DNA of 36,785 nt from a virus. This document shows, one piece after another, positions 6,006 through 35,464 of this stretch. The stretch's first letter is position 1. Each line of letters starts with the position of its first letter. Below the pieces are notes generated by a model. It ran no database searches. It saw only the letters and a program-made list of their open reading frames with translations, and had not been told where the DNA came from. The stretch is from positions 1 to 36,785 of the IMG/VR virus record IMGVR_UViG_3300046171_000077. The stretch is one strand, 5' to 3'. A program made the translations under genes and the position numbers.

Positions 6006-6036
6006 AACACGCAATTAAAATAATTTAAGAAATTTA

Positions 6037-6060
6037 TTTGACTCGGTTCTATTTTTGACT
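6037..6060 (+). promoter_or_regulatory. Repeated TTTGACT elements upstream of the RHH gene (possible promoter/operator)
   Basis: Two TTTGACT heptamers lie at 6037-6043 and 6054-6060, 17 bp apart, in the AT-rich gap between the lysis and early genes. Each contains a good -35 (TTGACT), but no convincing -10 lies 17 bp downstream of either. The repeat could equally be an operator for the RHH protein encoded 37 bp downstream, since such proteins bind direct repeats. The assignment is uncertain. Confidence 0.35.
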
Positions 6061-6096
6061 ACGTTTCATTTATCAGCGCAAGGCTGACCTAAAAAA

Positions 6097-6866: not shown

Positions 6867-6870
6867 CGAC

Positions 6871-8159: not shown

Positions 8160-8458
8160 CTATTGCAATGAAAAACCTTGTTGAGTCCGAGAAATGGAGG
8201 CGAGCAGGTGTTTCGACATATTACCGAAAGTCTTTGGTTTTAGCGACAGTCTGCGAACCTGGTATCTCAACTGATGATCTAGCTGCTGTAATCGGAACGA
8301 CCCGCGGGTGCATTAACACTGCTGTTAGCCATCTTGTTAAAAAGAACCTTCTTCGCAAGGAGCTGATAAAATCGACAAAGTTTGGCGAGCCTAGGAAAAT
8401 TAGAATTTACCCTACGCCTTACGCTAAAGATCTAGCAAACATTATTGAAACAGTATGA
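8156..8458 (+). CDS. Winged helix-turn-helix protein (MarR-like fold)
   Basis: The protein has 100 residues. Residues about 35-85 form a wHTH: GISTDDLAAVIGTTRGCINT is helix-turn-helix, followed by AVSHLVKKNLLRKELIKS and a strand pair (RKIRIYPTPYAKDL). Such domains bind DNA either as regulators or as part of replication or recombination complexes. It sits between the recombination nuclease and a VRR-NUC-like nuclease with 4-base overlaps on both sides. The target is unknown. Confidence 0.65.
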   Translation: MTIAMKNLVESEKWRRAGVSTYYRKSLVLATVCEPGISTDDLAAVIGTTRGCINTAVSHLVKKNLLRKELIKSTKFGEPRKIRIYPTPYAKDLANIIETV

Positions 8459-8760
8459 CACGCTACGCCAAACGGGTGGACGCCAATCACTCAGAAGTGG
8501 TTGCGGAGTTTAAGGAGCTTCTGCCCGAGGCTAGCGTATTTGATTTATCGGGCGCGGGAAGAGGCATTCCTGACATCCTCGTGGGCTTAAATGGGTTTAA
8601 CTACCTTTTTGAGATAAAGGACGGCTCCAAGCCTCCCAGCGCCCGTAAATTAACTAAAGCTCAACAGGAGCTGCACTCGACCTGGAAAGGTCAAATATGC
8701 GTGGTCCACAACGCCGGCCAGATGCTGGCGGAGATCGCGAAAACACAAAACACAAAATGA
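8455..8760 (+). CDS. VRR-NUC/PD-(D/E)XK-like small nuclease
   Basis: The protein has 101 residues. Motifs: DANHSEVVAEF near residue 9, then GAGRGIPDILVG with the catalytic Asp near residue 44, FEIKDG with Glu and Lys near 57-59, and LTKAQQELHSTWKGQICVV. This layout matches single-domain VRR-NUC/Hjc-like phage nucleases, which cut structured DNA such as branches. It lies between recombination and replication genes and its TGA overlaps the initiator ATG. The exact substrate is not readable. Confidence 0.75.
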   Translation: MTRYAKRVDANHSEVVAEFKELLPEASVFDLSGAGRGIPDILVGLNGFNYLFEIKDGSKPPSARKLTKAQQELHSTWKGQICVVHNAGQMLAEIAKTQNTK

Positions 8761-9518
8761 TTAAGATTAATAAATGGTCTCAGCTATTTGAGAATGCTGA
8801 CACAAGAAAGAGACAGAGACTTGGCTGGTTTTTATCCCCATCGGGCTGCGATTCTCGCGGATACAGACGACTAATGAGGAAAGGGAAGGACGGCATAGTG
8901 GCGTTTGGGGTTTTCCAAGCACTTTGTCAGGTGATGGCCACTTACTCAAAGGAGACACGAGCGAGCGGTGAATTTCGTAACTCGGATGGGAGTGGCATGG
9001 AAGTGGCAGACATCTGGGAGATAACCCGCATGGAAGTGGCAGATGACTGGCAGGTCATTGAGAACCTAAAAGAAGTGGGCTGGATTTCATTGATAAATCA
9101 ACAATCTGCCACCTCCGTGCCACCTCCGTGCCACCCTCCTGCCACCTCCGTGCCAGATAATTCTGGAATTGTTAAAGGAGAAGGAGAAGGAGAAGAAGAA
9201 GGAGAAGGAGAAGTTTTTTGTCCACAAGTGGACGATAAACAGATTTTATCTCAATTATGGGAATTAGCTCCAAAACTATCCAGACAACGATCATCAAAGA
9301 AACAGGTTTGGGATGAATGGAAAAAGATCAAAAAACCAGAGCGGCCTACGCTAGACGAGCTACTGGCCGCGATTGAAGCTTGGAAGCAGTGCGATCACTG
9401 GACTAAAGAAAATGGAGAATACCAGCAGGGTCTTCACCTTTGGATCAAAAGAATGAGATGGCAGGACTTGCCAGAAAGAAACACGGAAGGAGACGGAATC
9501 TATGTCGCTGAACTATAA
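8757..9518 (+). CDS. Replication initiator (phage O-like), containing the putative origin
   Basis: The protein has 253 residues from ATG 8757, which overlaps the previous TGA. A longer start at 8697 would overlap the nuclease gene and is not preferred. The N-terminal 115 residues are consistent with a winged-helix DNA-binding module (GFLSP-type start, FGVFQALCQVM, ITRMEVADDWQVIENLKEVGWI). A Pro/Ser-rich spacer and an acidic GEGEGEEEGEGE linker follow at about 140-152, as often seen in phage replisome organisers. The C-terminal part is helical and Trp-rich, probably for loader contact. The gene itself carries 11-bp iterons and a 40-base purine tract, much like the origin inside lambda O. A DnaC-like loader follows, overlapping by 17 bases. 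Confidence 0.75.
   Translation: MIKINKWSQLFENADTRKRQRLGWFLSPSGCDSRGYRRLMRKGKDGIVAFGVFQALCQVMATYSKETRASGEFRNSDGSGMEVADIWEITRMEVADDWQVIENLKEVGWISLINQQSATSVPPPCHPPATSVPDNSGIVKGEGEGEEEGEGEVFCPQVDDKQILSQLWELAPKLSRQRSSKKQVWDEWKKIKKPERPTLDELLAAIEAWKQCDHWTKENGEYQQGLHLWIKRMRWQDLPERNTEGDGIYVAEL
8995..9043 (+). repeat. 16-bp direct repeat in the initiator gene (possible origin element)
   Basis: GCATGGAAGTGGCAGA occurs perfectly at 8995-9010 and again at 9028-9043, a 33-bp spacing. It encodes a repeated MEVAD. Its GTGGCA core is the reverse complement of the TGCCAC core of the iterons at 9107-9155, and GTGGCA also occurs at 8992-8997. The site family therefore appears in both orientations around the probable origin. 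Confidence 0.6.
9107..9155 (+). repeat. 11-bp tandem iterons TGCCACCTCCG
   Basis: Units start at 9107, 9118, 9129 (variant TGCCACCCTCC) and 9140, with a partial unit (TGCCA) at 9151. The period is 11 bp, about one helical turn, and is not a multiple of three. The repetition therefore exists in DNA but not in the protein, which argues for a DNA-binding role rather than a peptide repeat. The array sits inside the replication initiator gene and is the best candidate for its binding sites. Confidence 0.75.
9174..9233 (+). other. Purine tract, T-run and inverted repeat: probable unwinding part of the origin
   Basis: A 40-base run of only A and G (9174-9213, mostly GGAGAA units) is followed by TTTTTT (9214-9219). 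Next comes the inverted repeat GTCCAC-AA-GTGGAC (9220-9233). TTGTCCACA at 9218-9226 differs by one base from the DnaA box TTATCCACA. In lambda, iterons are likewise followed by a strand-asymmetric, easily melted stretch. Function is inferred. Confidence 0.55.
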
Positions 9519-10071
9519 TGAAATAAAAACTTGGCTAGCAAAATGGGGATTCCCATCTCGCCACATCGCTAATTTAATGCAGATGCACGGCGATGGGCTA
9601 GGGAAAGCGCTGGAGCTTGAGGAGCGAGTAATAGGCGGTGATTGTTTGCTAATTTTATGCGGCGATCGTGGGCCAGGTAAAACTCAGATAGCGACCAAAT
9701 GGGCTGAGATGGCAGCTAAGCGTGACCAAGGAAGTCGATATTTTAAGACTCACGACCTGTTAGGAATAATTAAACAACAGTTTGAAGATGATAGGCAGTT
9801 AAAAGGAAACGCCCGCGAGACACTTCAGCAGGCCAAGAAGGTCTCACTGCTCATTTTAGACGAATGGTCCGAGCTAGCAGGAACTGACTGGGAGCAGAGA
9901 ACGCTAACTAACCTTATTGACCATCGCTACGACAACCTTTTAGCGACCGTTATCATAACGAATCACAAACCGAATGAGGCAGCGGCAGCGGTCGGAAGAT
10001 CTATTTGGTCAAGAGCCGAGGAGACCGGTGGAGTGGTGAATTGTAACTGGAAATCCTACCGAAATAAATGA
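9502..10071 (+). CDS. DnaC-like AAA+ helicase loader
   Basis: The protein has 189 residues, with a good AAGGAGA Shine-Dalgarno about 8 bases before the ATG. Walker A is GDRGPGKT (54-61), Walker B is LLILDE (116-121), the sensor is IITNHK (Asn154), and Arg171 in WSRAEE is the likely arginine finger. This is the compact AAA+ core of DnaC/IstB-type loaders with a short N-terminal helicase-contact part (1-45). It should load the host replicative helicase at the site opened by the upstream initiator. No phage helicase or polymerase is encoded in the window, so recruitment of the host replisome is expected. Confidence 0.85.
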   Translation: MSLNYNEIKTWLAKWGFPSRHIANLMQMHGDGLGKALELEERVIGGDCLLILCGDRGPGKTQIATKWAEMAAKRDQGSRYFKTHDLLGIIKQQFEDDRQLKGNARETLQQAKKVSLLILDEWSELAGTDWEQRTLTNLIDHRYDNLLATVIITNHKPNEAAAAVGRSIWSRAEETGGVVNCNWKSYRNK

Positions 10072-20359: not shown

Positions 20360-20980
20360 ATGAGCAAGATCATTACCGACATCGACATTGCCAACCAAGC
20401 GCTTGGCTATTTGGGAGAGCAGACAATTGCAACAATGTCTGAAAACACCAAGGAGGCACGGCAGGTCTCGCTCCACTTTGACCAGACGCTCCGTGAGATC
20501 ATGGAGAAGCACAGGTGGTCAGTAGGCCGGAAACGAACTAGAATGACGCTATTCGGCGCAACACCAGATTTCGGGTGGTCTTACGCTCACATTATCCCAG
20601 AAGACTGTCTTAGGGTCTTAGATTTGTTTGAGCTTTCAGAAGAGACGCCCACACCAAACCCAGTTCCTATTCGCAAGTTTGAGAAGGAGCCTGGGCTTAT
20701 CCTTAGTAACATTAAGCATTGCGGCCTAGTTTACATTAAAGAGGTGATCTCATCAGATCTATCACCACTTCTTGTTAAGGCTCTAGCAATCAAGCTGGCA
20801 TCAAAGCTAGCAATTCCCCTCGGTGAGTCCAGACTGGCCGGCGATCTATCTAATATGGCCGACAATGCCATCAAGGACGCATGGCTGAGCGACGCAAGAC
20901 AGTCACGATCAGGAGAAAACTCTGATTTCCTCCAAAGATCTGAAGAAAACCACGCCGAAAGCGGAAGATACAATGCCTGA
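20360..20980 (+). CDS. Tail tubular protein A (T7 gp11-like)
   Basis: The protein has 206 residues (T7 gp11: 196). Signature at the start: IDIANQALGYLGEQTIATM, then ARQVSLHFDQTLREIMEKHRW, and FGWSYAHIIPEDCLRVLDL at about 71-90. A C-terminal helical part (KALAIKLASKLAIPLG) follows. This protein forms the adaptor ring under the portal. It overlaps the gp12-like gene by 8 bases. Confidence 0.9.
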   Translation: MSKIITDIDIANQALGYLGEQTIATMSENTKEARQVSLHFDQTLREIMEKHRWSVGRKRTRMTLFGATPDFGWSYAHIIPEDCLRVLDLFELSEETPTPNPVPIRKFEKEPGLILSNIKHCGLVYIKEVISSDLSPLLVKALAIKLASKLAIPLGESRLAGDLSNMADNAIKDAWLSDARQSRSGENSDFLQRSEENHAESGRYNA

Positions 20981-23441
20981 GTTTTTGCAGTCTAACTTTA
21001 ATGGTGAGTGGTCTCCGCTCATGCTTGGCCGTGTAGAGCTGTCACGATACGCTACATCGCTAAGAACGATGGAGAACTTTGCCCCGACCATACCTGGCGG
21101 CGCGAGAAAGCGACCTGGCACTGAATACATTGGCGAAGTCAGAGACTCATCAAAGAAAACACGGCTTGAAAGCTTCACGTTTTCTAATGAGCAATCTTAT
21201 TTGCTGGAATTTAGCGATATAAAGTTACGGTTCTGGAGAAACGGGGTGTTATTAGGCGATATTAAAACAACTCCTTACACTGAGGATGAGGTGTTTAGCC
21301 TAAGAATGACATCAACAAACGACATTGTCTATATTGCCTCGCCTAATCATGCTCCCTACAAGCTAACCAGAACATCTGACACTACGTTTGATTTTGCAGC
21401 GCTTGAGTTTGAGAACCAGCCGTTTGAAGATCAGAATTTAACAACGACAACAATTACACCCTCTGGGACAACTAGCTCGGTAACACTTACTTCATCTGCT
21501 CCTTTATTTGTGTCTGAAATGGTGGGAAGTTCTTTTGAGATAACTCATTTAAAAGCAAGAGAGGTTTATGAAACCACCGCTGATAGAACTAATGGTAGCT
21601 ATGTTGTTTGGAGTTCAACAGGAACTTATTCTCAAGGAGATATTATTTTAGATCAGACTGGGGGAGCATTAGATTACTATTTGTGCATTTCTGCTTACAA
21701 CGGACATAATAATCCAAGTAATGATCCTATTTCTAACTATCCTTCTAACTTTGAAGCTGGGATTATTGCAAAAGACAAAAACAATAACTCTATTAACTAT
21801 TATGTAAGAGGTGAGTGGACACTAAGGACTGAGGGAAGCTGGAACAATGAGTGGGTTTTACAGGAGTCTTATGATAATCAGTCTACTTGGACAACAAGAC
21901 ATTCATTGGTTTCTGATAATGGTTCTGATAATTACACGAGAGAAGGAGATGAGACAGGAAATCCTGTTTGGTTAAGACTTATTCTTTTTAGTGGAAACAG
22001 TGAAAGAGACCCCGTTACCTTTACTATTGCAGAAACAGAAATATCTGGGGAAGTGTTGATCAACTCTGTTAATACAGGCAACAATACCGCAACCGCTACT
22101 GTTGTTGCCACAAAACCTTTGTTTAGCACTGATGCTACAAGTCTTTGGGCTGAGAATGAATGGAATCCTAGAAAAAAGTATCCTAAGCAGGTGTTCTTTA
22201 AAAACAACCGGCTTTGCTTTGCTTCTACTAAAGCAGACAACCAAGCTATTTGGGGAAGCGAGGTAGATAAATGGGATAACTTTAAGCGTGGCATACAAGA
22301 AGACTCACAGCCATTTAAAGACGTTCTAAGGACCGGCAACCAAGATCCGATACAATGGGTATCTGAGCAGTCAAAGACGCTTCTAGGGCTATCCTCGCAG
22401 ATAAGAAACCTAACCGGTGAAGACGGGTCGTCTATTCTAGCGCCAGGCAAGAACAGCTCGGCAAGACAAGCCGGTCGCGGCGCTGCTGACCTTGAGCCTG
22501 TAGAGGTTGATGACTTTACATTCTACGTCCAGCTAGGAGGCAGGATCATCAGAGGTCTCACAAACGATTATGAGCGTGGCGTTTACGCTGCTGCTGATAT
22601 GACTAGAGAGGCTGAACACGTAACTAGAGGTGGCGTCAAGCAGATGGCGTTTCAGCTAAACCGTGTTTCTACGCTATACGCCGTCACAGGAGAGGGTATT
22701 GCTGCCTGCCTAGTGTTTGATCCAGAAGTGGAGAAAATGGGCTGGTATCGCCTTAAAACGCAAGGAGGGACAATTGAGTCAGTTGCTATCCTTCCAGCTA
22801 CCGGAGAAGAAGACGAGGTCTACTTTGTCGTTAAAAGAACCATTAATGGAAGCACTAAGCGCTACATTGAGAGGTTAAAGAACGATCAGATCAGAATTCA
22901 AGATGACGGCCTGCAAGACGATATGTTCTATGTCGATTGCGGCACTACGATTACTGGCACTAATATTACAACGGTAACAGGCTTAAATCACCTAGAAGGC
23001 GAGGAGATACAAGTTCTTGGAAATGGTGATTACTTAGGTAAATTTACAGTGGCCAGTAATTCGATTACAATACCCGCTAGCAACAAGGTGACCTATGGTC
23101 TACCTATTGAAGCTAAGCTATGGCCAATGCCGTTAGAGGGCATTACAGCGTCAGGAACGACCTCTGGAGACAAGAAGCGCGTCAAAGAAATTACGATTGA
23201 CGTTATGAACTCACTCGGAATCCAGACAAAAGACTCACCGGATGACACTAAAGAGCCTACAGATCTTACTCCAAGACAGTCTGATGCAGACCTTGGATCA
23301 TCGCCGGCACTATACAGCGGCAAGCTTGAAGTCAGAAATACTTTGCCAAGATCGTTTGATGGTAATGTTTTTTATCAATCAGATATTCCTTTTGGCGTAT
23401 TTATTCGTAACATCATTACTAAATGGGAGAAGACCAGCTAA
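20973..23441 (+). CDS. Tail tubular protein B / nozzle (T7 gp12-like)
   Basis: The protein has 822 residues (T7 gp12: 794). Typical opening: FNGEWSPLMLGRVELSRY, then NFAPTIPGGARKRPGTEYIG. Beta-propeller-like repeats follow, with QVFFKNNRLCFASTKADNQ, EQSKTLLGLSSQIRNLTGEDG and RIIRGLTNDYERGVYAAADMTREAEH in the middle. Residues about 185-345 form an inserted beta-sandwich region with Trp/Ser/Asn-rich repeats, which may contact the fibres. It overlaps the next gene by 19 bases. Confidence 0.9.
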   Translation: MPEFLQSNFNGEWSPLMLGRVELSRYATSLRTMENFAPTIPGGARKRPGTEYIGEVRDSSKKTRLESFTFSNEQSYLLEFSDIKLRFWRNGVLLGDIKTTPYTEDEVFSLRMTSTNDIVYIASPNHAPYKLTRTSDTTFDFAALEFENQPFEDQNLTTTTITPSGTTSSVTLTSSAPLFVSEMVGSSFEITHLKAREVYETTADRTNGSYVVWSSTGTYSQGDIILDQTGGALDYYLCISAYNGHNNPSNDPISNYPSNFEAGIIAKDKNNNSINYYVRGEWTLRTEGSWNNEWVLQESYDNQSTWTTRHSLVSDNGSDNYTREGDETGNPVWLRLILFSGNSERDPVTFTIAETEISGEVLINSVNTGNNTATATVVATKPLFSTDATSLWAENEWNPRKKYPKQVFFKNNRLCFASTKADNQAIWGSEVDKWDNFKRGIQEDSQPFKDVLRTGNQDPIQWVSEQSKTLLGLSSQIRNLTGEDGSSILAPGKNSSARQAGRGAADLEPVEVDDFTFYVQLGGRIIRGLTNDYERGVYAAADMTREAEHVTRGGVKQMAFQLNRVSTLYAVTGEGIAACLVFDPEVEKMGWYRLKTQGGTIESVAILPATGEEDEVYFVVKRTINGSTKRYIERLKNDQIRIQDDGLQDDMFYVDCGTTITGTNITTVTGLNHLEGEEIQVLGNGDYLGKFTVASNSITIPASNKVTYGLPIEAKLWPMPLEGITASGTTSGDKKRVKEITIDVMNSLGIQTKDSPDDTKEPTDLTPRQSDADLGSSPALYSGKLEVRNTLPRSFDGNVFYQSDIPFGVFIRNIITKWEKTS

Positions 23442-23827
23442 CCTTGAAACCTTATTTTCCAGAACATTATCCATTGCTTTGCCAATGGTGGGACTCACAC
23501 GGCTCTCTGAGGGCTAGTAGGTCTGATTTGGAGTCTGGTATAGGATTGGTGGCAGAAAGCGATTCTAGGCCCGTTGGAGCGTGTTTCTTGTATGTTACAG
23601 GAGCGCTTGGGTTTATTGAGGCTATGGTTATTAGCCCTGACTCAACTGTATCCAAGTCTAGAAAGATTGCTGACACTTTATTTAAGGAGTTACAAAAGAT
23701 AGCCAAGGCAGAAGGCGTCAACAAGCTAATCGCTTTTGTTCAGTCTAAAGGCATGGTCAGGGAGTGTTCTCGCTCAGGTTTCACACAAGTAGGGCCACCT
23801 ATGGCGCAAATGGTTCAAACAATATAA
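23423..23827 (+). CDS. GNAT-fold protein after the nozzle gene (gp13-like position)
   Basis: The protein has 134 residues. The strand-helix order resembles a GNAT acetyltransferase: ESGIGLVAESDSRPVGACFLYVT, then GFIEAMVISPDSTVSKSRKIADTLFKEL (where acetyl-CoA would bind), then VNKLIAFVQSKGMVRECSRSGF. The usual R/QxxGxG/A loop is not present in clear form, so it may be inactive and structural. Podoviruses often have such a gene between the nozzle and the internal virion proteins. Confidence 0.65.
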   Translation: MGEDQLTLKPYFPEHYPLLCQWWDSHGSLRASRSDLESGIGLVAESDSRPVGACFLYVTGALGFIEAMVISPDSTVSKSRKIADTLFKELQKIAKAEGVNKLIAFVQSKGMVRECSRSGFTQVGPPMAQMVQTI

Positions 23828-23831: not shown

Positions 23832-24320
23832 ATGGCAATTCCTTTACAAATAGCAAGCACCGTAATGAAAGCGGGTGCATCAATTCAACAGGGGCAGATG
23901 GCAATGCAGTCTGCTAGGTATAATGCGAGAGTTATTGCGCGGCAGGCTGAGCAGGAGGCAGAAGCTTCGTTAGAAAGCATGGCTCGCAAGAGAACTGAAA
24001 ACGAAAGAGCGTTATCATCGATTAAACTCCGTATGCAAGAGTCTGGACTTGATACGACTCAGGGATCTAGCGCGGATTACTTTGATGAGGCCACTTCAAG
24101 ACTTGAGTTACAGATTTTAGACGAAGCTAGGCAGATGTCATTTAGAGATAAGGCAAGGCGCAACGAAGCTCAGATGCAGATCTACCAAGGAAAAGTAGCA
24201 AGAGCTAACGCGCAAGCTACAGCAATGGGCCAGCTTATAGGAGGAGCAGCTAGGATTTCTAGCAAAATGAAAGCCATAGAGGACGCAACTCCAGGATTTA
24301 GTAAAACAAAAACTTTTTAA
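23832..24320 (+). CDS. Internal virion protein (T7 gp14-like)
   Basis: The protein has 162 residues. It is a small Ala/Gln/Met-rich helical protein with a hydrophobic start (IPLQIASTVMKAGASIQQGQ), then ARYNARVIARQAEQEAEAS, the SSADYFDEATSRLELQ motif and a C-terminal GQLIGGAARISSKM. This is the usual pattern of gp14-like proteins, which form a pore in the outer membrane during DNA ejection. It lies directly before the gp15- and gp16-like genes. Confidence 0.8.
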   Translation: MAIPLQIASTVMKAGASIQQGQMAMQSARYNARVIARQAEQEAEASLESMARKRTENERALSSIKLRMQESGLDTTQGSSADYFDEATSRLELQILDEARQMSFRDKARRNEAQMQIYQGKVARANAQATAMGQLIGGAARISSKMKAIEDATPGFSKTKTF

Positions 24321-24323: not shown

Positions 24324-25721
24324 ATGCCACAATTACCAAATTTAACAGGGCCAGCAGTGCCTCCAGAGCAGGCAGCAGGAATCAGAGTTGGAGTGCCTTC
24401 TACTTCTGGTCTGCAAGCAATAGCACAAGCTGTTGGATCGGTAGGCGAGGAAATGCACGCTGCTGAGATGAAAATCTTAGAAAAACAAAACAGCATTGAT
24501 GTTCTTAAAAACGAAAGCGCCTATGGACAGCATATGGCTAATGAACAACAAAAGCTTGATATTAACAATCCTGCTAGCTGGCCTGATCAAGTTAAAAAAG
24601 CATCTTCTGATTTTGTAAATGGCCTTTCCTCTAAAAATTTATCACCAGATGCTTTAGAGTCCCTTAAAATGAGGATTATGAATTACGAGTCTAAAGTCAT
24701 GTTAAACGTGGCTCGTGATGCTCGACTTGCTCAAGTGCAAATAATATCTGGGGAATTTCAAAACCGGCAAAATGTATTTTTTGAGAATAAAGATTTTGCT
24801 GGAGCTAAGGAAAACTTAAAAGAATCAGCTAGTTTGTTAGAAATGCCAAACCATGAAGTTGAAGCTGGCCTTATGAAGATTGAGCAACAAGAAAGAATAG
24901 CAGAATATGAAGATCAAGTAGTTTCTGGTAATTCAGAATATTTTGAAAATGATTTACCTGCATTGTCTAAATCTGACAGAGCTTCTTACAAAAGGAAAGC
25001 GGCAGCGCGTAAAGCTGAATTAGAAGCAAATGATATTGATAGAATATCAGGAGCTATGGCTATAGGCGTAATTAAAACAAAAAACGATTTAGTTAAAAAC
25101 CTAGAAGCTGCTCCAAATGTATCTAGTCAAATGGCTAGGAAGGTTTTATCAAATTGGGAAAACTCTAAGCCACTTAGCTACGAAGAAAAAAGAAAAATAA
25201 CCGATACGTTAAATGATTTACATGATCAGTATTCAAAAGGGAAAATTTCTCGCGACGAATACGGCAGGAAGCATCACAATATAGCTTCTGAAGTTTATGC
25301 TATGGGGAAAAGAGAAGGCGTTGGTGGTTTAAGATCTAGGTTGTATGCTCTTGATCCAACCAAATGGAGTGATGGCAATTTGAAACTTTCAAAAGCTGAA
25401 GACATTGATCAAAAAATTGAAAAAATGGTTTCAGCGTGGGATGGTGCAGGAGGGTTTGGTAAGCCAAAAAGGGGAGAAGACCAACTTAGCCCTAAAAAAG
25501 CTTTAGAAGTGCAAGCTGCTAGAGAGCTTACTGAAATGTCAATGAAGGAGTGGGCAAAGACAGACGAAGGTAGAAATGCTACACCAGATCAAATAAGAAA
25601 AGAGTTTATGAATCAAGCTATTGATGCCATGACGCAAGACATCATAAAAGAAGAATTGGATTACAGTAAAAGATTGGATTCAATTTTAGAAGGAGCAGGA
25701 AACACGGCTTTACCAAAATGA
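24324..25721 (+). CDS. Internal virion/ejection protein (T7 gp15-like)
   Basis: The protein has 465 residues, shorter than T7 gp15 (747). It is almost entirely helical and highly charged, with repeated Glu/Lys/Ala/Gln stretches and no membrane segment. It begins MPQLPNLTGPAVPPEQAAGI. It overlaps the giant next gene by ATGA, so the two are produced together. gp15- and gp16-like proteins form the periplasmic tunnel for DNA entry. The assignment is by position and composition. Confidence 0.7.
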   Translation: MPQLPNLTGPAVPPEQAAGIRVGVPSTSGLQAIAQAVGSVGEEMHAAEMKILEKQNSIDVLKNESAYGQHMANEQQKLDINNPASWPDQVKKASSDFVNGLSSKNLSPDALESLKMRIMNYESKVMLNVARDARLAQVQIISGEFQNRQNVFFENKDFAGAKENLKESASLLEMPNHEVEAGLMKIEQQERIAEYEDQVVSGNSEYFENDLPALSKSDRASYKRKAAARKAELEANDIDRISGAMAIGVIKTKNDLVKNLEAAPNVSSQMARKVLSNWENSKPLSYEEKRKITDTLNDLHDQYSKGKISRDEYGRKHHNIASEVYAMGKREGVGGLRSRLYALDPTKWSDGNLKLSKAEDIDQKIEKMVSAWDGAGGFGKPKRGEDQLSPKKALEVQAARELTEMSMKEWAKTDEGRNATPDQIRKEFMNQAIDAMTQDIIKEELDYSKRLDSILEGAGNTALPK

Positions 25722-28700
25722 TTATTGATTTACCAACTTCGCCTAAAGAAGCTGACAGTTTTTTCAAAAACAAAGACATTGATCCTGTCTTGGCTGACAG
25801 ATCAGCTATGGGATGGGTTGAGCAGTTTAATTTGTTAGACAATCCAGAAGCTCCATTTAACCAAATTGTTGAGGATAAAAAAACAGAGCTTAGAGCTGCT
25901 TTAGGTCTTTATAAAGATTGGAATAAATCAAGAGGTGTTCAGCCGTTTGCATCTCAAAAATATGCAGGCACTGAACGAAGGGAGTTGAATTTTGCTAAAA
26001 ATATACCTAAATGGAATAGGCTTTTTTCTGATGATAGCTTTGAGTCAGAGTTAGAAGAAAGAGGACTTAAAGGTAAGTATGACGAAGTATTAAAGCTAAC
26101 TGGTGAAGGTGGCCAAGAAGCAGTAAGGAATAACTTTAGAAGAAAATTATTTGTTAGTGAAATTGCGGGAGAACCTAATGATGTAAATCAAGCTAGAATA
26201 GCAAAGGGACTTTTAGGTATAGATGACTCAGATGACGACTTTTTTGTATCGTCTGCCAAAAAGTGGGTTACCGGAACAATTAATAATCAAAAAGTTGCCA
26301 CAGACTCTTATGAAATGGGCATTGACGCTTTTATTGCAGATGATGCTGAGTCTTTTAACGAAAAGCTAAAAGAAAGAAGGAGTGTTAGCGCTATTGCTGA
26401 AGAATCATTTATTAAGGGTTACAATAGCTTGATGGACGGCGATGGCAAAGCAATGCTATTCCAAGCCAGCAAAATTGTTGCAAAAGCTAAAGCGGAAGGA
26501 GAAAGAGGTTTATTTGAACAAAAGAAAGATTTACCGGAAGCGTCAATTGGGCTTGTTGCTGAATTCTACGCAAAGCCAGGGGGGCGGGAAAAATTCTTAA
26601 TGATTTTAAATCATAAAATTCAACAAGAGTCATCAAAAACTGACGTTAGCTTTCTTACTAAATTTTTAAAACAGGCGTCTAGGTTTTACGAATCTGAAAT
26701 TGGAGCTGCCGGTAGAAATATTCTAAGAAGAAATATTGAAGAAGGTGATCGATCTTTATTTTTCCCAGACGATCCAGATTCTAAAAATTTTGAAACAGTA
26801 AACGGTAGAAAATTAGCCAAAAAGCTTTCAGAAAAAGAAAAAGCTTACTTCAGAAATGTTCAACAAGTTTCGGCTGACATTTCTAATGTTAAACAAGCTG
26901 TTTCTCAGATTGATGGAGAAAACTGGTTTTCAACTATGATCTTAGACCAGTCTGGCACATTGGCGCAAATGCCTCTTATTATGAATCCTGTTGGTTTATA
27001 TACTAGGTATGACTCTCAACGCCAACTTGATACTGAGGAAATTTTAGCACAAGACCCTGATCTTCCCTATGATGAAGCTAGGGGGATGGCTCGTTTTTCT
27101 GCTGGAATGAATGTTTTTTCAGAAAGATTAGCTACAGGATTTTTTCTTAAAAAGTTTCCAACAATTAAAAATGCTACTTCAAAAATAAAAGGAGCTAGTC
27201 CTGTTTCTATAGCACAAGCTTTCCGAAGAGCCGGAGTAGCAGCAGCAGGCATAACTGGAGCGGAATATTTACAGGAATCTTTTCAAGAGGCTACGCTTCC
27301 TTTAACATTAGATTTATTTAGCTCTCTTAACGAAGAGATGCCTGAAGGGGATTGGGAGCAGTTCAAAATGTGGGATCAGCGCAGATTTTTAGCTGTTTTG
27401 CCCTTGGCTATTCTTGGAGGTGGAGGACAAGCCGCTCGCGATAGGATCTCGACGGCAGAGCTAGGAAAAGTGCTTTTAGCTAAGAACGACGTAATGATAA
27501 GCGGAAGATCTGAAAAGCAAGCTCAAGAAGTTGCAGAGCTGGCAATGACAGATCCAGATGCAGCTTTAGCTCTTTATAAAAAGCAAGGCGAGTCGATGAG
27601 CAGAGAGGAACAAGAGTCTTTTGGCAACGAGGCAATGCGAAATGTTTACTCTGATCAACTTGGAGAAGAGTTTGCGGCTATGCCAATTGCTAGGCAAACT
27701 GAAGACGGAAAGTTTTCATTGGATTTTCAAGATGGAAGAAAAGAAGAATATGATTCTGTAGCCGAAAGAGATCAAGCTTTAGAGAATTGGTCTAAGGAAG
27801 AGTTTTTCCAGACAAGGGAGGCAATGGAGGCTTTTGCTGAAATGGCTAAAGAAAGGGTTGAAGGAGAAGCTGATTTTAAAATTGAGCGTCCAAGAACTTT
27901 CCAAGATCTTGCGGATCAGGGTGTTGAAACGGAAGCGAATCTTAAAAAAGCCATTGGTGTATATTACTCCCAAATGGGAGAAGTCGCTCCAGATAAAATT
28001 GATTTAGCTAATTACATTGAAGAGGGGTCTGTTAGTCTAAAAAGAAATCTATCAGGCTTTGCAGTTAGATTAGCTCAAGGAGCGAGTCCTATTACAGTTG
28101 CTGAAGAATTTTCTGAGGGTTTTATTAGAAGAGCGGTAGGTTTAGGTGAAACAAGTTTTGATGAAGTGAAAGCGCTTCTTGATGAATTTGGTGAAATGTC
28201 CGGCATACAAATGACGGAAGGCTATGACATAGATCCTGAGCGAGCTGTAATTGAAGGCTTTTCTAAGTTTTCAAAAGCTTATGCGCTACAAGGTAAGTAT
28301 GATATGCTTCCTAAAGAGACTCAGTCATGGATGTCTAAAGCATGGGCTGTAATGGAAAACAGCAATAACATTCCTGGCGTTTTAAAAGCATTTTCTGAGT
28401 TATTTTCAAAAATGTTCAAGGCTGTTTATGATGTGGCTAAGGCAATTGAGTTTCACAGAGCAAAGGGCGCTGGAATTGATCCTGACTTAGAAAGCATGGC
28501 GTTACGGGCGCTTGGTTTTGATGAGAAGGGGTATAATGAAAGAATGCAGGAGAGAGCTAATCAGGAAGCGCTTGAGGACACTTTTGGTGACACTATTCAA
28601 GGTGATGATACCTTTTCTGTTGGCCGGTCCGAGGTAACTCCAACAGCCGATACCCAAGTTTTCCCAACTAAGGATGGTGGGGTTGTTGGTCCTGCTTCGT

Positions 28701-31700
28701 TTTCAATCTCGGCTTTCCACGGGACACCTCACAAGGTAGACGAGTTTAGCACTGAGCAGATCGGCACGGGCGAGGGCGCTCAGGCTTACGGGTATGGGCT
28801 TTACTTTGCTCAGAGTGAGGATGTGGCGCAGAGGTATAGGGACGACTTGACCGATACCGGATTTGCGAAAAGAAGGCTCAAAAAAGCGGGGAGCGATATT
28901 AATGTGGCTCTTACTGAGGCAAGGGAAAGAGCTAGCAAATATAGAGAGGGTGGCGCGGATGCTTATGCTAGTGCTATTGAGGAGGACATCAGGTTTCTTG
29001 AGAAATACAAAAAGTCTGGAGAGTGGGCTTCCGGCTCCCTCTACACCGTAGAACTCAACGTCGAGCAGGACGAGCTTCTTGATTGGGATAAGCCGATGAG
29101 TGAGCAACCCAAGGTAGTTCAAGAAAATCTTCGCGAAATGGTAGAAGACTACTCTAAAGATTTCCCTCGCACCGCAGATGAAATCAACGGCGGCGAGATT
29201 TATTCTGAGTTTGTTGACAGAATGAATATACAAGAAGGTCAGGAGGGCATAGCGTCAAAATCTCTTTACGATATTGGCATAAAAGGCATCCGCTACCTTG
29301 ATGGTGCTAGTAGAAACGCAACATGGAAACTATCATCACCCGATACCGTTGTAGCGGGGGATTGGATGGTGAAGGACTCCAGTAAACCTCTTAGCGATGG
29401 TGTTCACTTTAACAACGAAGCCGAAGCTCAAGCGTTCCTTGAAGAAAAAAACCAAGGCACATTTAACTACGTCATTTTTAATGATGCTGATATTACGATC
29501 ACGGAGGAAAACGGCCAAGTTGTTGATACAACCAGCCCATCTTTCTCTATCACGCCAGCGCAGGACGCTGGGAACATTGAAACTTTATTTAAAGATCAAA
29601 TTGACCCTTTAATTTCATACACTTACCCCGTTCTAAAAGGAGATAGCCAAGCGCAAACGACAGCAAAAATTAAGCTTTTGGAAGCCTTGGAAGAGAATGA
29701 TCAACTAAGTAATTACGCTATTGAAACTATTGAACAATACTCAGATGATATTCTTGATGAATTTACGCGAGAGGTAATGGAAGGAAAGGATTTTTCTGAG
29801 ATTGTTGAGGAACAAGAACAAGAAATAAAAGACGATCCTGACTCCTTTAGCGATGACTTCTCAACTGAAAAAAACCTTACAGAATGGCTTCTTAATGAGC
29901 GAGGTGAAGGACAAATAGAAAACTCTGGTTACGCATTTCCTGATGGAACACTATTACATATGTCTCATGATGGGTTTGGAAGAGACGTAGATCATAGAGA
30001 AGTGCATTTCCCAAACAGCCCAGGAGGGACTGAAGGGATGGTTGCAATAATGAATGCTGGCATAATGCGTTTTGATTATTCGGGTGGAGGAGTAACGCTT
30101 AGACATCCTCCGACACGCGCACAGGCCGATATTATTGCCCGAATTGCTAGCCATACAGAGGTTTTTCTTGATGCTGAGCAGGCTTCTTCAGATGGGTATA
30201 ATGAAAAGCGAAGAGCTAGTTTTGAAATTACAGATGAATTTGCTGTAGATGATGTAATTAACAGTGTTAGGGCTTTTTATAGAGGAAGAGATTTTGAAGG
30301 CATAAGCACTTTTGGAATTCAGCCAGTAGAGCAATATGGTGCTATCACTAAGCTGGAGAAAAAAATATTATCAGACAGAGTTAATATTGGAAAAAGGCTT
30401 GAGGCAAAACTTGAGGCCGATGAGAAAAATTGGAACAACGCCAAAAAGTCAGGAAACCAAGAAGAAATCGAAAGAGCTGCCCAGCAAGTTATGCGAAGAA
30501 CTCAGGCGTATATGGAAGTTCTTCCTGATTATCCAATGGGGCCAACAATATCCAAAGCTCAAGATCTTGCGGAAAAGGTTCTAGTTGGATCTATTGAAAT
30601 AACAGAAGGCATTAAGATTGTTGACGAAAATGCCAGATACTCAGGGCTTCCTATCAAGCTTCCATCTTGGCTAAGTAATTTAAAGGTGGCAGATTGGGTC
30701 AAAAGAAACCTGAGAGCTAGAGGTGATTTAACTCCAGACCAATTTAAAATTAAGCTAGCCTCGGAAGCCATTACCTTGACTGAGCTTAAAAGAGCAGAGT
30801 TAATAAATTCTCGTCTTAAAAAAGCGGTCAAAAAGGAAGCTTTAGTAGCTCCTAATTCTGAAGGTGTGTTAATGGAGGACTTTCTCATGAAAAGAGTCCA
30901 GGACGCCCTTGTGATGGATGGCGCGGTAAATGTCACAGAAGCAATCAACAAGCTCCCTAAGAGCCTACAGAGCGTCACTAAAGAGATGCGTGTTCATGTT
31001 GATAGCCTTTCTCGCGAAATGATTAAGAAGGGCATTGCCAAAGGTGATCTTGCTGATGTGTTCCAAAGAAACATTGGCAGTTATCTAAATAGATCTTATC
31101 GCAGATTTACTAGACCAGAAAAGTGGAAGCACGAGGTAAGTGAAGAGTCTAAAAAGAACGCAATGCAATGGCTTGAAGACAACTTGCCAGCCGAAGCATT
31201 TAGCGGAGATGTGTCAAAGGAAGATCAATTAGAAGGTTATGTTGATACACTTTTGACTGATTCAGTTTCTGGGGGCTTTACGGACCAAATGAACTGGCTT
31301 TTAGGCCAGAAGCATATTGGAAACCTTATTGCCAGAAAGAAGGTTCCTATTGAGCTTAGAGAGCTTTGGGGTGAATACAAAAGAGGCGATGAGAACTACA
31401 TGACCTCGGTCCGCAAAATGGCTACTCAGATTGGCAACCACACAATGCTTACTGAGTTTTTAAAGAATGGACTCAATACTGAAATATTTTCTACGCCTAG
31501 GAAGGGCTTTTCTAAGCAAATAAGCTCAAAAGGAAACGAAATGCTGTCTCCTCTAGATGGATACTATGTTTCTGAAGGAATGTCTCAGGCGCTAATTGAT
31601 TTTTCAGAAACAGGAGAAACTACAGCGTGGTGGCTTAAATTATGGTTGAAATTCAACTCAGTAGCAAAAGTCACAAAAACAATATACAACCCTACGACTC

Positions 31701-33277
31701 ACGCTAGAAACTTTTTGTCTAACTTTGTTTATGTGGGAGCTAACGGAAACCTGTTTGAATACTTAAATATTGACACGGTTAAAATGTCTGCGACTATTAA
31801 TTACAAAGAAATATTTAAGAGTTGGGGGACTACAAAGGATATTGAGGATAGGATTCTTCATTACATTAGGCTTGGCATCATGCAGCAAGGTGCTGTATCA
31901 CAAGAATTTAAGGATATTCTTAACGATTTCTCAGCGGGAGATGTAGATATTGATGAATATACTCAAAACAGCGCAAAGAGATTTGCAAAAGCCGGTCTAA
32001 AGAAAATAGAATCTCTTTACCAAGCAGAAGATGATTTTCATAAGATTGTTTCATATGAGGCTGAAAGAGCAAAGTTAGCCAAAGCTAAGCCTGAGTGGAA
32101 ATCTGACAAGTTAGATGCTGAAGCAGCTCAGATAGTTAGGGACACTATGCCTGACTACTCGCAAGTTCCAAATGCAGTTAAAATGCTTAGAAGGGTTCCG
32201 TTTATAGGAACATTTACCTCGTTTACGTCTGAGGTAATCAGGAATAACACTAACATTATCCAAAGAGCTAAGTTTGAGATGTCAGATCCTGAGCTTAGGA
32301 GTATCGGAGCGAAAAGACTTTCGTCATTCGCAATTGCACACAGCATCCCTTTAGCGGGCGCGTATTTTCTCGCCTCATTCTTTGGCGTCGATGACGAAGA
32401 AGATGAAGCGACAAGAGCTATTGCTGCTCCTTGGGATAAATATGCACAGCTTTTATATGTCGGGAGAACTCCTTCTGGAGATCCTCAATATATTAACATT
32501 AGTTACACTGATCCATTTAGCGTATTCAAGACCCCTATTTTTGTAAGTCAACAAGATGGATTTTCGCCTGTTTCTGTTGCTAAGGGCATACTAATGGGTC
32601 TAGAGCCTTTTTACGGAGAAGAAATTGGAACTGCTGCGCTTCTTGATATTAGGGAGAATAAAAACGAAAAAATATTTAATCCTAATTCGGACGCTTGGAC
32701 AATCACTAAAGATATTTCCGAGCATATACTGAAAGCTGTTGAGCCTGGTGTAGTAAGATCAACAAAAAGGATTTACGAAGCTGCAACAGGCAAAGAAACC
32801 GATTCTGGCATGAAGCTAGACACAAGAACAGAAGTCATCGCGGTTCTTTCTGGTCAAAGAATAACCTCTATTGATCGAAAGAAAGCAATTCTTTATAGGA
32901 ACTATGATTTCCAAGATGCTCTTAGGTCGTCTACGTATCGCTTCAATAAAGCTTGGAGAAATAAGAATGTAGATAAAAAAGAGTTATCTAAGGCTTACAA
33001 GCAATACAAAAAAGATAACGAAAAAGCATATTCTGAATTTCAAGATGCTTTACAGGCCGTATCAAGGCTTGGTCTTACTGAGGAGCAAATCCTCCTAGAG
33101 ACAACAAAGGGTAAAGATAATACAGAAACAGCAAAAAGGCTTTTGAATTTGCTTAGAGCGCCAGCCGGTGAAACTCCAATGCCTGACAAAAAGTTTACAA
33201 AATCTCAAATTAAAGAAATTGAAGAAAAAGGCCGAAAAGAGATCTTAGAAGAAGTTGCCCCTGAGCTTTTTGATTAG
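25718..33277 (+). CDS. Giant polyvalent ejection protein (gp16-like position) with ADP-ribosyltransferase-like domain
   Basis: The protein has 2519 residues, nearly twice T7 gp16 (1318). Residues 1-960 are mostly helical. At about 995-1262 lies an ART-PolyVal-like domain: AFHGTPHKVDEF (His1001), YGYGLYFAQSEDVAQRY (Tyr1024), LYTVELNVEQDELLDW, DIGIKGIRYLDGASR and TFNYVIFND at about 1248-1256. At about 1400-1520 is a second conserved-looking module (FPDGTLLHMSHDGFGRDVDH, then GGTEGMVAIMNAGIMRF). From about 1970 the C-terminus resembles large-polyvalent-protein domain LPD38 (NPTTHARNFLSNFVY) with hydrophobic stretches near 2205-2225. Recurrent FS[VI] motifs at 966, 995 and 1276 mark domain edges. 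If carried in the virion, the ART could modify host proteins on entry. That is inference; the catalytic Glu was not firmly located. Confidence 0.85.
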   Translation: MIIDLPTSPKEADSFFKNKDIDPVLADRSAMGWVEQFNLLDNPEAPFNQIVEDKKTELRAALGLYKDWNKSRGVQPFASQKYAGTERRELNFAKNIPKWNRLFSDDSFESELEERGLKGKYDEVLKLTGEGGQEAVRNNFRRKLFVSEIAGEPNDVNQARIAKGLLGIDDSDDDFFVSSAKKWVTGTINNQKVATDSYEMGIDAFIADDAESFNEKLKERRSVSAIAEESFIKGYNSLMDGDGKAMLFQASKIVAKAKAEGERGLFEQKKDLPEASIGLVAEFYAKPGGREKFLMILNHKIQQESSKTDVSFLTKFLKQASRFYESEIGAAGRNILRRNIEEGDRSLFFPDDPDSKNFETVNGRKLAKKLSEKEKAYFRNVQQVSADISNVKQAVSQIDGENWFSTMILDQSGTLAQMPLIMNPVGLYTRYDSQRQLDTEEILAQDPDLPYDEARGMARFSAGMNVFSERLATGFFLKKFPTIKNATSKIKGASPVSIAQAFRRAGVAAAGITGAEYLQESFQEATLPLTLDLFSSLNEEMPEGDWEQFKMWDQRRFLAVLPLAILGGGGQAARDRISTAELGKVLLAKNDVMISGRSEKQAQEVAELAMTDPDAALALYKKQGESMSREEQESFGNEAMRNVYSDQLGEEFAAMPIARQTEDGKFSLDFQDGRKEEYDSVAERDQALENWSKEEFFQTREAMEAFAEMAKERVEGEADFKIERPRTFQDLADQGVETEANLKKAIGVYYSQMGEVAPDKIDLANYIEEGSVSLKRNLSGFAVRLAQGASPITVAEEFSEGFIRRAVGLGETSFDEVKALLDEFGEMSGIQMTEGYDIDPERAVIEGFSKFSKAYALQGKYDMLPKETQSWMSKAWAVMENSNNIPGVLKAFSELFSKMFKAVYDVAKAIEFHRAKGAGIDPDLESMALRALGFDEKGYNERMQERANQEALEDTFGDTIQGDDTFSVGRSEVTPTADTQVFPTKDGGVVGPASFSISAFHGTPHKVDEFSTEQIGTGEGAQAYGYGLYFAQSEDVAQRYRDDLTDTGFAKRRLKKAGSDINVALTEARERASKYREGGADAYASAIEEDIRFLEKYKKSGEWASGSLYTVELNVEQDELLDWDKPMSEQPKVVQENLREMVEDYSKDFPRTADEINGGEIYSEFVDRMNIQEGQEGIASKSLYDIGIKGIRYLDGASRNATWKLSSPDTVVAGDWMVKDSSKPLSDGVHFNNEAEAQAFLEEKNQGTFNYVIFNDADITITEENGQVVDTTSPSFSITPAQDAGNIETLFKDQIDPLISYTYPVLKGDSQAQTTAKIKLLEALEENDQLSNYAIETIEQYSDDILDEFTREVMEGKDFSEIVEEQEQEIKDDPDSFSDDFSTEKNLTEWLLNERGEGQIENSGYAFPDGTLLHMSHDGFGRDVDHREVHFPNSPGGTEGMVAIMNAGIMRFDYSGGGVTLRHPPTRAQADIIARIASHTEVFLDAEQASSDGYNEKRRASFEITDEFAVDDVINSVRAFYRGRDFEGISTFGIQPVEQYGAITKLEKKILSDRVNIGKRLEAKLEADEKNWNNAKKSGNQEEIERAAQQVMRRTQAYMEVLPDYPMGPTISKAQDLAEKVLVGSIEITEGIKIVDENARYSGLPIKLPSWLSNLKVADWVKRNLRARGDLTPDQFKIKLASEAITLTELKRAELINSRLKKAVKKEALVAPNSEGVLMEDFLMKRVQDALVMDGAVNVTEAINKLPKSLQSVTKEMRVHVDSLSREMIKKGIAKGDLADVFQRNIGSYLNRSYRRFTRPEKWKHEVSEESKKNAMQWLEDNLPAEAFSGDVSKEDQLEGYVDTLLTDSVSGGFTDQMNWLLGQKHIGNLIARKKVPIELRELWGEYKRGDENYMTSVRKMATQIGNHTMLTEFLKNGLNTEIFSTPRKGFSKQISSKGNEMLSPLDGYYVSEGMSQALIDFSETGETTAWWLKLWLKFNSVAKVTKTIYNPTTHARNFLSNFVYVGANGNLFEYLNIDTVKMSATINYKEIFKSWGTTKDIEDRILHYIRLGIMQQGAVSQEFKDILNDFSAGDVDIDEYTQNSAKRFAKAGLKKIESLYQAEDDFHKIVSYEAERAKLAKAKPEWKSDKLDAEAAQIVRDTMPDYSQVPNAVKMLRRVPFIGTFTSFTSEVIRNNTNIIQRAKFEMSDPELRSIGAKRLSSFAIAHSIPLAGAYFLASFFGVDDEEDEATRAIAAPWDKYAQLLYVGRTPSGDPQYINISYTDPFSVFKTPIFVSQQDGFSPVSVAKGILMGLEPFYGEEIGTAALLDIRENKNEKIFNPNSDAWTITKDISEHILKAVEPGVVRSTKRIYEAATGKETDSGMKLDTRTEVIAVLSGQRITSIDRKKAILYRNYDFQDALRSSTYRFNKAWRNKNVDKKELSKAYKQYKKDNEKAYSEFQDALQAVSRLGLTEEQILLETTKGKDNTETAKRLLNLLRAPAGETPMPDKKFTKSQIKEIEEKGRKEILEEVAPELFD

Positions 33278-33334: not shown

Positions 33335-35464
33335 ATGCCAGTAACTGAGCAATATACTCCTAGATATTACACTGGAGACGGCGCAAAGCAGATTTTTGAT
33401 GTGCCTGATCTATGGTTTGAGCAATCAGAAGTAAAAGTTGAGGTTGCTGGAGTTCTCACGGGATGGACGAGAGAAGCTGGTGAGGGGGTTAGATTAGCGA
33501 CTGCGCCTGCTTCTGGGGCTTCTGTGGTTATCTATAGAATAACATCACTTACCCAAGATAAGGACTTCCAGACAGCCGGACGTATGCCAGCCACTGAGGT
33601 TGCTGAAGGCTTTGACAGGCAAATCCTTATCAATCAGGAGGTTAAGGATAGATCTACGTTTTTACCTCCAAATACGACTACTCAAAACAAAATTAACACA
33701 ACTGTTGGTTTTGATGCAAATGGAGATCCTGTTTTAAGAACTGCTACCCAACAGTCTACTTATTTAGGTCTTGCTAATTTGAGTCAAATGCAGTCCTATG
33801 CTAACACTGCTGAAGAGCAAGCTGGATATGCAAACCAAGAGCGTGTACTTGCTGAAGCTGCGGCAGCATCGGCTCAATCAGCTACACAAAGCGTAGCGGG
33901 TGCTGTTACCCCTAAAGATTACGGAGCGTTTGGCGATGGAGCTTCACACCCTGCTAGCGGCTCATACTCCACGCTGGCGCTAGCTCAAGCGGTGTATCCG
34001 AGATGTGTAGCTCTTACTGAAGAGCTTGACGGCTTAGCGATCCAGAAGGCTTGTGACACTGGTGGACGGGTCTTTATTGCTGACGGGACTTATAAAATAT
34101 CAACTACTATTGAACTTAAAACTCAAGGGCAAATTATTGAAGGAGAAAGCTCAACAAGCACAATTTTGCAATGGGTTCAAGATGTTAATGGTTTTGAAAT
34201 TGAAGACAATCCTAACGAAAGTAATACAACTAACTTTCCAACAAGTTCTTCCGCAAGCTCTTCTTGGGGTCAGATTAGAACATTGTTGATTTATGGGCCT
34301 GCAAATTCTACTAAAAAAGGCATCACTAACACTGAAGATCCAAATGCAACTCTTTGGGTTGGTGAAGGGTGGAGGTATGACTTTCTTACTATTCTTGGTT
34401 GGCATACGGGGATATATTCATCAAGCGCGGCTAGATTAAATGGTCGTTCAATTAATATTAAAAGTTGCAGCGCAGTTGGATTACACCTTTCTAATGGTAG
34501 TTCTGCCACAAATAACTGTCACGTTTTTTACGGTGTTTCTATGTCGTCTTGTGATATTGGGATTAAATTACAAACTGTTCGATCTGCTTGGATTCAACTT
34601 CAAGACACAACAGGAAACCGTGTTGATGTTAGCGCAAATGCTTCTCTAGCGCACATTGAAGGTGGACAGGCCGAAGCCTACACTGAAAGATTTTTAATTG
34701 CTGAGAATTCTTCCCGCATGACTATTTCTAATGTTAACATTCTTGCTTCGACAACAATTATTCCTATCACTGTAAATGGTAATTCATCTGTTAAGATTGT
34801 AAATTGCCAAAACGTGCAAGCTGGAAACCAGGTGGAGATTGCAGAAATTTTAGATACTAACTCAACAGTATTTGGAACTGCTCATCTTCATCTTTCGGGA
34901 TCAGCGCCTGGCACTTCTCCAACTTCTAGAGTTAGAATATCCCAAGCTGATTCTAATACTGCTAATGATGATTCGGTATTTCTTTGCCCGATACCGTGGA
35001 GACTAGGAACTAGCCTTCTTCCATCAGACTCAAATCATCGCGGGGCTTTGCATTGGCGTGGGGCAGTTCCTTATAATAACCTTAATAACGATGATTTGCA
35101 GGGCGTTATTGAAATGGGAGGAAATTATGTCCGCGCTGACGCATTCAAACGAAATACATTTTCAATTAATATTACATCAGGTGGTTATGGGCCACAGGGA
35201 TTTGAGGATGTTATCTTAATGGATAACACGGGAGTCAGAACCGTATCTTTAAGAGCTACAAATTCAGCTTATTATCGTGCCTCAACAAACATGAGGGTGT
35301 TTACAATTGTAGATTCGGCTGGGACTGCTCAGACTTCACCTATTACCATTAGCGCTAATGGCTCAGATACAATTAATGGGAGTAATAATTATGTCATTAA
35401 CTCTCAATATGGATCAGTCAAAATTGGAACTACTGGAAATGGTAAATGGTTTATCCTCCCTTAA
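33335..35464 (+). CDS. Tailspike: T7-fibre-like N-terminus plus beta-helix (depolymerase candidate)
   Basis: The protein has 709 residues. Residues 1-150 resemble the T7 gp17 N-terminal adaptor (YTGDGAKQIFDVPDLWFEQS, then VVIYRITSLTQDKDF and FDRQILINQEVKDRS). A short coiled-coil, Ala-rich section (about 145-190) follows. At about 192 the classic pectate-lyase-like entry TPKDYGAFGDG starts a beta-helix with GRVFIADGTYKIS. The C-terminus is a beta-rich capping region. Such spikes bind or cut surface polysaccharides. No catalytic residue pair can be named safely. The leader lacks a Shine-Dalgarno. Confidence 0.88.
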   Translation: MPVTEQYTPRYYTGDGAKQIFDVPDLWFEQSEVKVEVAGVLTGWTREAGEGVRLATAPASGASVVIYRITSLTQDKDFQTAGRMPATEVAEGFDRQILINQEVKDRSTFLPPNTTTQNKINTTVGFDANGDPVLRTATQQSTYLGLANLSQMQSYANTAEEQAGYANQERVLAEAAAASAQSATQSVAGAVTPKDYGAFGDGASHPASGSYSTLALAQAVYPRCVALTEELDGLAIQKACDTGGRVFIADGTYKISTTIELKTQGQIIEGESSTSTILQWVQDVNGFEIEDNPNESNTTNFPTSSSASSSWGQIRTLLIYGPANSTKKGITNTEDPNATLWVGEGWRYDFLTILGWHTGIYSSSAARLNGRSINIKSCSAVGLHLSNGSSATNNCHVFYGVSMSSCDIGIKLQTVRSAWIQLQDTTGNRVDVSANASLAHIEGGQAEAYTERFLIAENSSRMTISNVNILASTTIIPITVNGNSSVKIVNCQNVQAGNQVEIAEILDTNSTVFGTAHLHLSGSAPGTSPTSRVRISQADSNTANDDSVFLCPIPWRLGTSLLPSDSNHRGALHWRGAVPYNNLNNDDLQGVIEMGGNYVRADAFKRNTFSINITSGGYGPQGFEDVILMDNTGVRTVSLRATNSAYYRASTNMRVFTIVDSAGTAQTSPITISANGSDTINGSNNYVINSQYGSVKIGTTGNGKWFILP

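Follow-up and report, generated by a model that had tools for sequence, protein, structure and literature searches.

An ART-PolyVal-family domain in an exchangeable slot of the gp16-position protein in a group of T7-like phages

T7-like ejection proteins are usually regarded as channel parts only. We wondered if such a protein may also bring an enzyme into the host. The question is raised by a giant open reading frame in the window, i.e. the whole stretch of DNA that was analysed (36,785 nucleotides, IMG/VR record IMGVR_UViG_3300046171_000077). The frame (25718-33277, plus strand) is real, runs without interruption and encodes 2519 aa. An earlier note had placed its product at the gp16 position and described an embedded ADP-ribosyltransferase (ART)-like domain, and it had suggested a polyvalent-protein character and a delivery resembling that of T4 Alt.

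In the window, tail tube A (assigned by synteny and position only) opens a series that continues with tail tube B, the 134-aa and phrog_418 proteins, the 465-aa protein and the giant protein and closes with the tail fibre. Around the giant frame, the T7 order gp12-13-14-15-16-17 is matched gene for gene:

20973..23441, plus strand: gp12-like tail tube protein B (phrog_376)
23423..23827, plus strand: gp13-position protein, 134 aa (by position; weak match to phrog_17252, which has no function attached)
23832..24320, plus strand: gp14-like internal virion protein (phrog_418)
24324..25721, plus strand: gp15-position protein, 465 aa (by position; co-varies with the N-terminus of the gp16-position protein)
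25718..33277, plus strand: gp16-position giant protein, 2519 aa (open reading frame; synteny with T7 gp12-gp17)
33335..35464, plus strand: gp17-like tail fibre (PF03906, T7 tail fibre N-terminal domain, E 2.8e-5, slightly under the cut-off)

The giant protein thus occupies the slot between gp15 and gp17, and both its claimed position and its claimed length of about twice T7 gp16 (1318 aa; ratio 1.9) hold. It resembles T7 gp16 (internal virion protein D) in this position and in its large size. Unlike T7 gp16, it is 1.9 times longer and shows no detectable similarity to that protein: a PHROG scan gave no match to phrog_342 (T7 gp16), and hhalign comparison of its N-terminal, middle and C-terminal regions with T7 gp16, for which the alignment is shallow, returned nothing. 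Pfam and PHROG scans likewise detected no N-terminal lytic transglycosylase in the giant protein, whereas T7 gp16 itself matches transglycosylase families. Megablast of the window against phages gave no match. A gene at the window's left end (919-4248) encodes 1109 aa, which include a Laminin_G_3/ConA-like lectin domain.

Within the giant protein, the following features were distinguished:

25718..28582, plus strand: N-terminal backbone, residues 1-955 (common to relatives with and without ART)
26915..27577, plus strand: conserved backbone stretch, residues 400-620 (glycine-rich hydrophobic segments here in relatives)
28040..28162, plus strand: putative degenerate zincin-like motif, AEEFSE at residue 795 (HExxH in some relatives)
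28613..28624, plus strand: separator FSVG, residues 966-969 ([FY]S[ILVM]G motif)
28700..28711, plus strand: separator-like FSIS, residues 995-998, bordering ART strand 1 (by motif)
28703..29506, plus strand: ART-PolyVal-family domain, residues 996-1263 (Pfam, tblastn, alignment, fold model; compact relative)
28718..28720, plus strand: His1001, strand-1 histidine (His in 77/78 aligned)
28802..28804, plus strand: Tyr1029, strand-2 tyrosine (78/78 aligned)
29108..29275, plus strand: ART segment 1131-1186 (replaced in a close relative)
29465..29467, plus strand: Asn1250, third-motif residue (invariant, 78/78 aligned)
29543..29554, plus strand: separator-like FSIT, residues 1276-1279 (by motif)
31004..33088, plus strand: C-terminal region, residues 1763-2457 (matches phrog_22602, a virion structural protein; homologous to proteins of phages Y3 and phi18:3, the latter gp123)

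Residues ~996-1263 are, judged by sequence, an ART-PolyVal-family ADP-ribosyltransferase domain with its family motifs kept and with predicted catalysis. Pfam ART-PolyVal (PF18760) matches residues 999-1042 with E 7e-4 and 20.8 bits, under the gathering cut-off of 31.2; at E<=0.01 it is found in 17 of 18 aligned giant proteins, at best with 3.6e-25. Using the ART domain as tblastn query, phage vir555 (E 1e-28, 90% of query) and Tunturi_5 (2e-25) were retrieved, both with 85-90% coverage, and an IMG/VR scan yielded at least 585 relatives. Such whole-domain homology, together with the kept motifs and with the viral ART-PolyVal fold matches described below, confirms the embedded ART-like domain of the earlier note. 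Members of this ART subfamily are also found as separate proteins of ~350-550 aa (L014, L022, L026, L041 and others); in Sulfitobacter phage phiGT1 (L014) its gene, at 4918-6081, lies between the portal and scaffold genes.

FHGTP (1000-1004, with His1001) and YGYGLYFA (1024-1031) are located as previously described, and NYVIFND, placed near 1251 in the earlier note, begins at 1250. An alignment of 78 divergent sequences reveals that, apart from the residues listed above, Gly1002, Pro1004, Glu1019, Gln1130 and Arg1199 are kept in all 78, and that the LDWDKP..Q and Y.D..SR motifs are strictly conserved. Tyr1024, formerly taken as the key tyrosine, is well conserved, yet it lies outside the tyrosine position of the G-x-G-[LI]-Y-F-A motif. 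The tyrosine of this motif, which we take to be equivalent to the catalytic tyrosine of PARPs, is Tyr1029 here. Asn1250, at the start of a strand, presumably corresponds to the position where PARPs have their Glu. Of the residues sought as catalytic, the alignment shows His1001 and Tyr1029; column 1255 contains Asp in 58 of 78 relatives and Asn in the window protein. Since the polyvalent ART clade was described as His-Tyr-Asp (H-Y-D) (PMC5512222), this Asn is a caveat for the predicted activity and no refutation of it. The R-S-E active site of Alt/VIP2 is absent from the window ART, the motifs of which are of H-Y type.

ART is the only polyvalent domain recognised by Pfam in the window protein, and relatives carry several, which together would agree with the proposed polyvalent character. 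The LPD38-like region (PF18857) that had been reported towards the end was not found, either in Pfam scans or at E<=10 in a direct profile search, where controls gave no match too. A PDB sequence search with ART profile A1 returned none. Profile A4 matched HIV gp41 constructs (E 1e-4); this was rejected as a chance match in a helical segment, composed of two construct repeats that each reach E 0.3-0.5 alone and leave the ART motifs uncovered.

To specify the fold, residues 985-1275 were modelled by AlphaFold2 (pLDDT 92.4). Foldseek search of BFVD with this model gave 31 matches at E<=1e-3, with identity down to 11%; many of them bear the name of an ART-PolyVal-like or large polyvalent protein, and others are unnamed. 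One match (E 9.5e-13) is a 920-aa protein of Burkholderia phage Bp-AMP4 (BFVD A0A0A8KXG5), which could be a cultured case. Against the PDB, the window model retrieved low-TM noise and no solved ART. A compact relative from the same phage group (L056, 212 aa, pLDDT 91.5) did match ARTs, so that the empty result of the window model can be ascribed to its long helical insertion. The top four PDB matches of L056 are tankyrase-1 (E 0.02, probability 0.95) and, at ranks 2-4, three RES toxin chains; PARP3 follows at rank 15. All five are ART-superfamily folds, a support that is specific and statistically modest. The structure prediction suggested earlier is thus favourable as to viral ART-PolyVal proteins, and as to solved ARTs it is so through L056 (E 0.02) and not through the window model itself.

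We therefore favour the reading, with a probability of roughly 0.7, that the giant protein is a gp16-equivalent ejection protein that carries an exchangeable effector cassette, here an ART, which is delivered in a T4 Alt-like manner. This reading builds on position, domain family, motif conservation, slot exchange and separators, all of them legible in the sequence. The constant N- and C-terminal parts would form or assist the DNA-ejection channel, a role suggested by position and by distant C-terminal homology, and the variable slot between them would carry effector cargo, here the ART-PolyVal-family ADP-ribosyltransferase. As a putative virion component, the giant protein would, during ejection, leave the capsid either together with the DNA or before it. 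The ART domain would then reach the host cytoplasm and transfer ADP-ribose from NAD+ to a host macromolecule, favouring the phage as Alt does. The Alt-like delivery put forward earlier is plausible.

The delivered ART may instead be a NAD+ glycohydrolase, or act on nucleic acid or small-molecule signals and not on a host protein. RES proteins, found at ranks 2-4 with L056, are NAD-degrading toxin folds, the third motif residue is Asn, neither Glu nor Asp, and viral NAD/ADPr systems were proposed to counter NAD-based or nucleotide-signal defences (PMC9503650). On the other hand, a kinship of the polyvalent ART clade with protein-modifying ARTs has been argued (PMC5512222), and we consider this alternative unlikely, if worth keeping in mind.

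Further, we examined variation among close relatives. One relative within the species group, L002, is 97-99% identical to the window for most of the giant protein from residue 600 on. In the ART core, dN/dS between the two is 0.12-0.25, indicating purifying selection. L002 has 115 extra residues at 956. Moreover, ART segment 1131-1186 is replaced in L002 (16% identity) while the rest of the ART is 93-97% identical; the segment has been swapped between close relatives with both flanks conserved. It could set target specificity.

Is the ART itself a fixed part of the giant protein? An N-backbone alignment (A5) was too divergent for scanning the collection and a closer subset (A6) worked, so the closer relatives' version of the conserved N-backbone stretch served as IMG/VR probe. 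It identified 58 loci, 46 of them with a recognisable tail tube B and 47 with the gp14-like protein. This ART subfamily is present in 22 loci and not in 31, some of which are open-ended and may hide cargo; the remaining 5 are cut by the contig end. Among 54 scored non-redundant proteins, the N-terminal ~900 aa are constant, as are the C-terminal ~1000 aa in close relatives, and the middle is variable, with this ART subfamily in 28. L128 and L125, for example, are 91% identical in the N-terminal and 99% in the C-terminal part and carry MuF_C and ART, respectively, in the slot. Similarly, L113 and L115 (88% and 79% identical outside the slot) contain Kinase-PolyVal with LPD3 versus ART. Other cargoes are PBECR5 nuclease (L159), LPD13 (L140), a weak Kinase-PolyVal match with DUF7178 (L110) and another ART-PolyVal subfamily (L107, L138). 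On a maximum-likelihood tree of the backbone, made by a quick method and with some long branches, 28 ART and 26 non-ART rows require 11 changes, with a minimum of 9 by starred branches. By sequence comparison, then, the middle of the gp16-position protein is an exchangeable cargo slot between constant parts, and ART is one of several cargoes.

Ahead of the slot, a few relatives have an intact zincin-like HExxH motif, which in most, as in the window, is degenerate (noted at L032, L023, L073, L147, L149 and L005); possibly it is a relic of the polyvalent-protein metallopeptidase.

ART superfamilies include non-catalytic members. With Asn1250 and Asn1255 standing where acidic residues are expected, the ART might accordingly be a structural or binding relic, its fold kept for assembly or NAD binding and its catalysis lost. 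Such a relic is difficult to reconcile with strict conservation of the H, Y and N residues and of LDWDKP..Q and Y.D..SR over 78 divergent sequences, or with the low dN/dS against L002. Moreover, kinase or nuclease domains replace the ART in near relatives, which suits effectors and not structure. We regard the relic as improbable.

Several observations bear on the question whether the giant protein is ejected. The gp15-position protein and residues 1-200 (up to ~400) of the giant protein diverge together (window 24324-26900 versus L002-L005), while several neighbouring genes are near-identical in the same comparisons. Such joint divergence would suit a contact between gp15 and gp16. The C-terminal region has a distant homologue in Cellulophaga phage phi18:3, gp123, which was annotated from virion MS/MS. 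Another homologue, ORF31 of Pseudoalteromonas phage vB_PunP_Y3, matches window residues 1746-2493 and also contains an ART-PolyVal match (E 2.3e-6, slightly below cut-off). If the giant protein were not ejected, it would be a head/core or late-made protein whose effectors act in the producing cell, e.g. in superinfection exclusion. This would agree with the missing sequence kinship to T7 gp16, ejection being argued from position only. The T7-like gene order, the co-variation of gp15 with the giant N-terminus, the virion-annotated C-terminal homologue and the hydrophobic glycine-rich segments in the conserved backbone of relatives all speak against it, and we give this possibility little credence.

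Borders of the slot are marked by a short peptide, [FY]S[ILVM]G. It occurs in 81 copies in 55 non-redundant proteins, compared with 8.3 in shuffles (maximum 17 of 200); the count is inflated by related sequences, and single proteins nonetheless hold three to five copies. As many as 76 of the 81 copies are situated in the slot, which corresponds to 1.67 per 1000 residues versus 0.04 and 0.06 in the backbones. The ART of the window is framed by one exact copy (FSVG, 966) and two looser variants (FSIS, 995; FSIT, 1276). Since several members (e.g. L127, L128, L132) have no copy, the peptide is confined to a subset of the group. Nor is it a general trait of polyvalent ART proteins, as outside the group 6 copies were observed versus 4.5 in shuffled sequences. 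Codons for its serine, isoleucine and glycine vary, so conservation acts at the peptide level, which counters a role as DNA-level recombination sites. As to function, processing or hinge signals are the likeliest reading of the separators; as such they would let the modules act and evolve apart.

L005 and L006 are siblings of the window phage by their tail genes (97.7% DNA identity over part of tail tube B). The N-terminal part of their giant protein has no detectable similarity to that of the window, and yet their ART cassette is 99.6% identical to the window's over 234 bp. The reading frame is broken in several places in both (about 6500-9675, near the contig end), which may reflect either real decay or sequencing errors; an alternative code for the stops in their ART was not supported, as all three stop codons occur and the frame is broken repeatedly. 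That the cassette pattern is a metagenomic assembly artefact joining unrelated genes is hardly credible: slot-bearing group members are indeed all uncultured IMG/VR contigs and the L005/L006 frames are broken, but dozens of uninterrupted frames of 2000-3200 aa from many samples stay open across the junctions, separators sit at these junctions, and the phage records vir555 and LS06-2018-MD07, which likewise have a T7-like cluster, carry ART in the gp16-position protein.

Extending the favoured reading of an ejection protein with an effector cassette, we propose, at about even odds, that this phage group uses its gp16-position protein as an effector magazine: between constant parts, one slot would be loaded by recombination with an ART, a kinase, a nuclease or another domain, and each module, bounded by processing peptides, would pass through the ejection channel and be released in the host.

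Parts of this scheme have precedents. Phage polyvalent proteins with ART domains (ART-PolyVal / Tox-ART-HYD2 clade) were described by Iyer et al. 2017 (PMC5512222), and neither polyvalent ART proteins nor ARTs packaged in the head are a new idea (PMC5512222, PMC9503650). For delivery, T4 Alt and polyvalent proteins provide the precedent, and cassette-like recombination was raised for kinase loci in the 2017 paper (PMC5512222). The window protein shares with polyvalent proteins an ART of that family with His and Tyr motifs, a multidomain make-up and a predicted presence in virions, and its relatives share Kinase-PolyVal, PBECR5, LPD3, LPD13 and MuF_C. In contrast to them, the proteins of the window group hold a fixed place, gp16, in a T7-like ejection cluster and have constant backbones around one slot with group-specific peptide separators; the window protein itself has Asn where most have Asp, and no Pfam LPD domain. 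The terms linker, T7-like and internal virion are absent from PMC5512222, and no report of ART in a gp16-position protein was found among titles and abstracts of the open-licence literature.

With T4 Alt, the window protein would share the logic of a virion-borne ADP-ribosyltransferase at the start of infection; Alt, however, is a separate head-packaged protein of the R-S-E class, whereas the H-Y-type domain is fused inside the putative ejection protein. Y3 ORF31 likewise joins a sub-threshold ART-PolyVal match to a homologous C-terminal region, but as annotated it lies outside a recognised T7-like gp12-gp17 cluster; it was published as an auxiliary metabolic gene, and in the available part of that publication an ejection role is not proposed (PMC11654794). 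The gp16-position protein of vir555 (L013, BK063671) is alike in gene order (phrog_376, phrog_418, gp15-position, giant) and in its ART (E 1e-28), and unlike in backbone and C-terminus. vir555 itself is T7-like, and its predicted host is an archaeon (Methanomicrobiales). What is new here, at the level of sequence, is that in a group of T7-like phages the gp16-position protein contains a slot for exchangeable effectors whose borders are marked by separators.

If the proposed reading is true, ejection would be effector delivery as well, with swappable enzymes threaded through the same channel. Slot cargoes would then constitute a candidate list of early anti-host or counter-defence enzymes, and the giant protein would point to a device by which proteins are delivered in nature and whose modules have defined borders.
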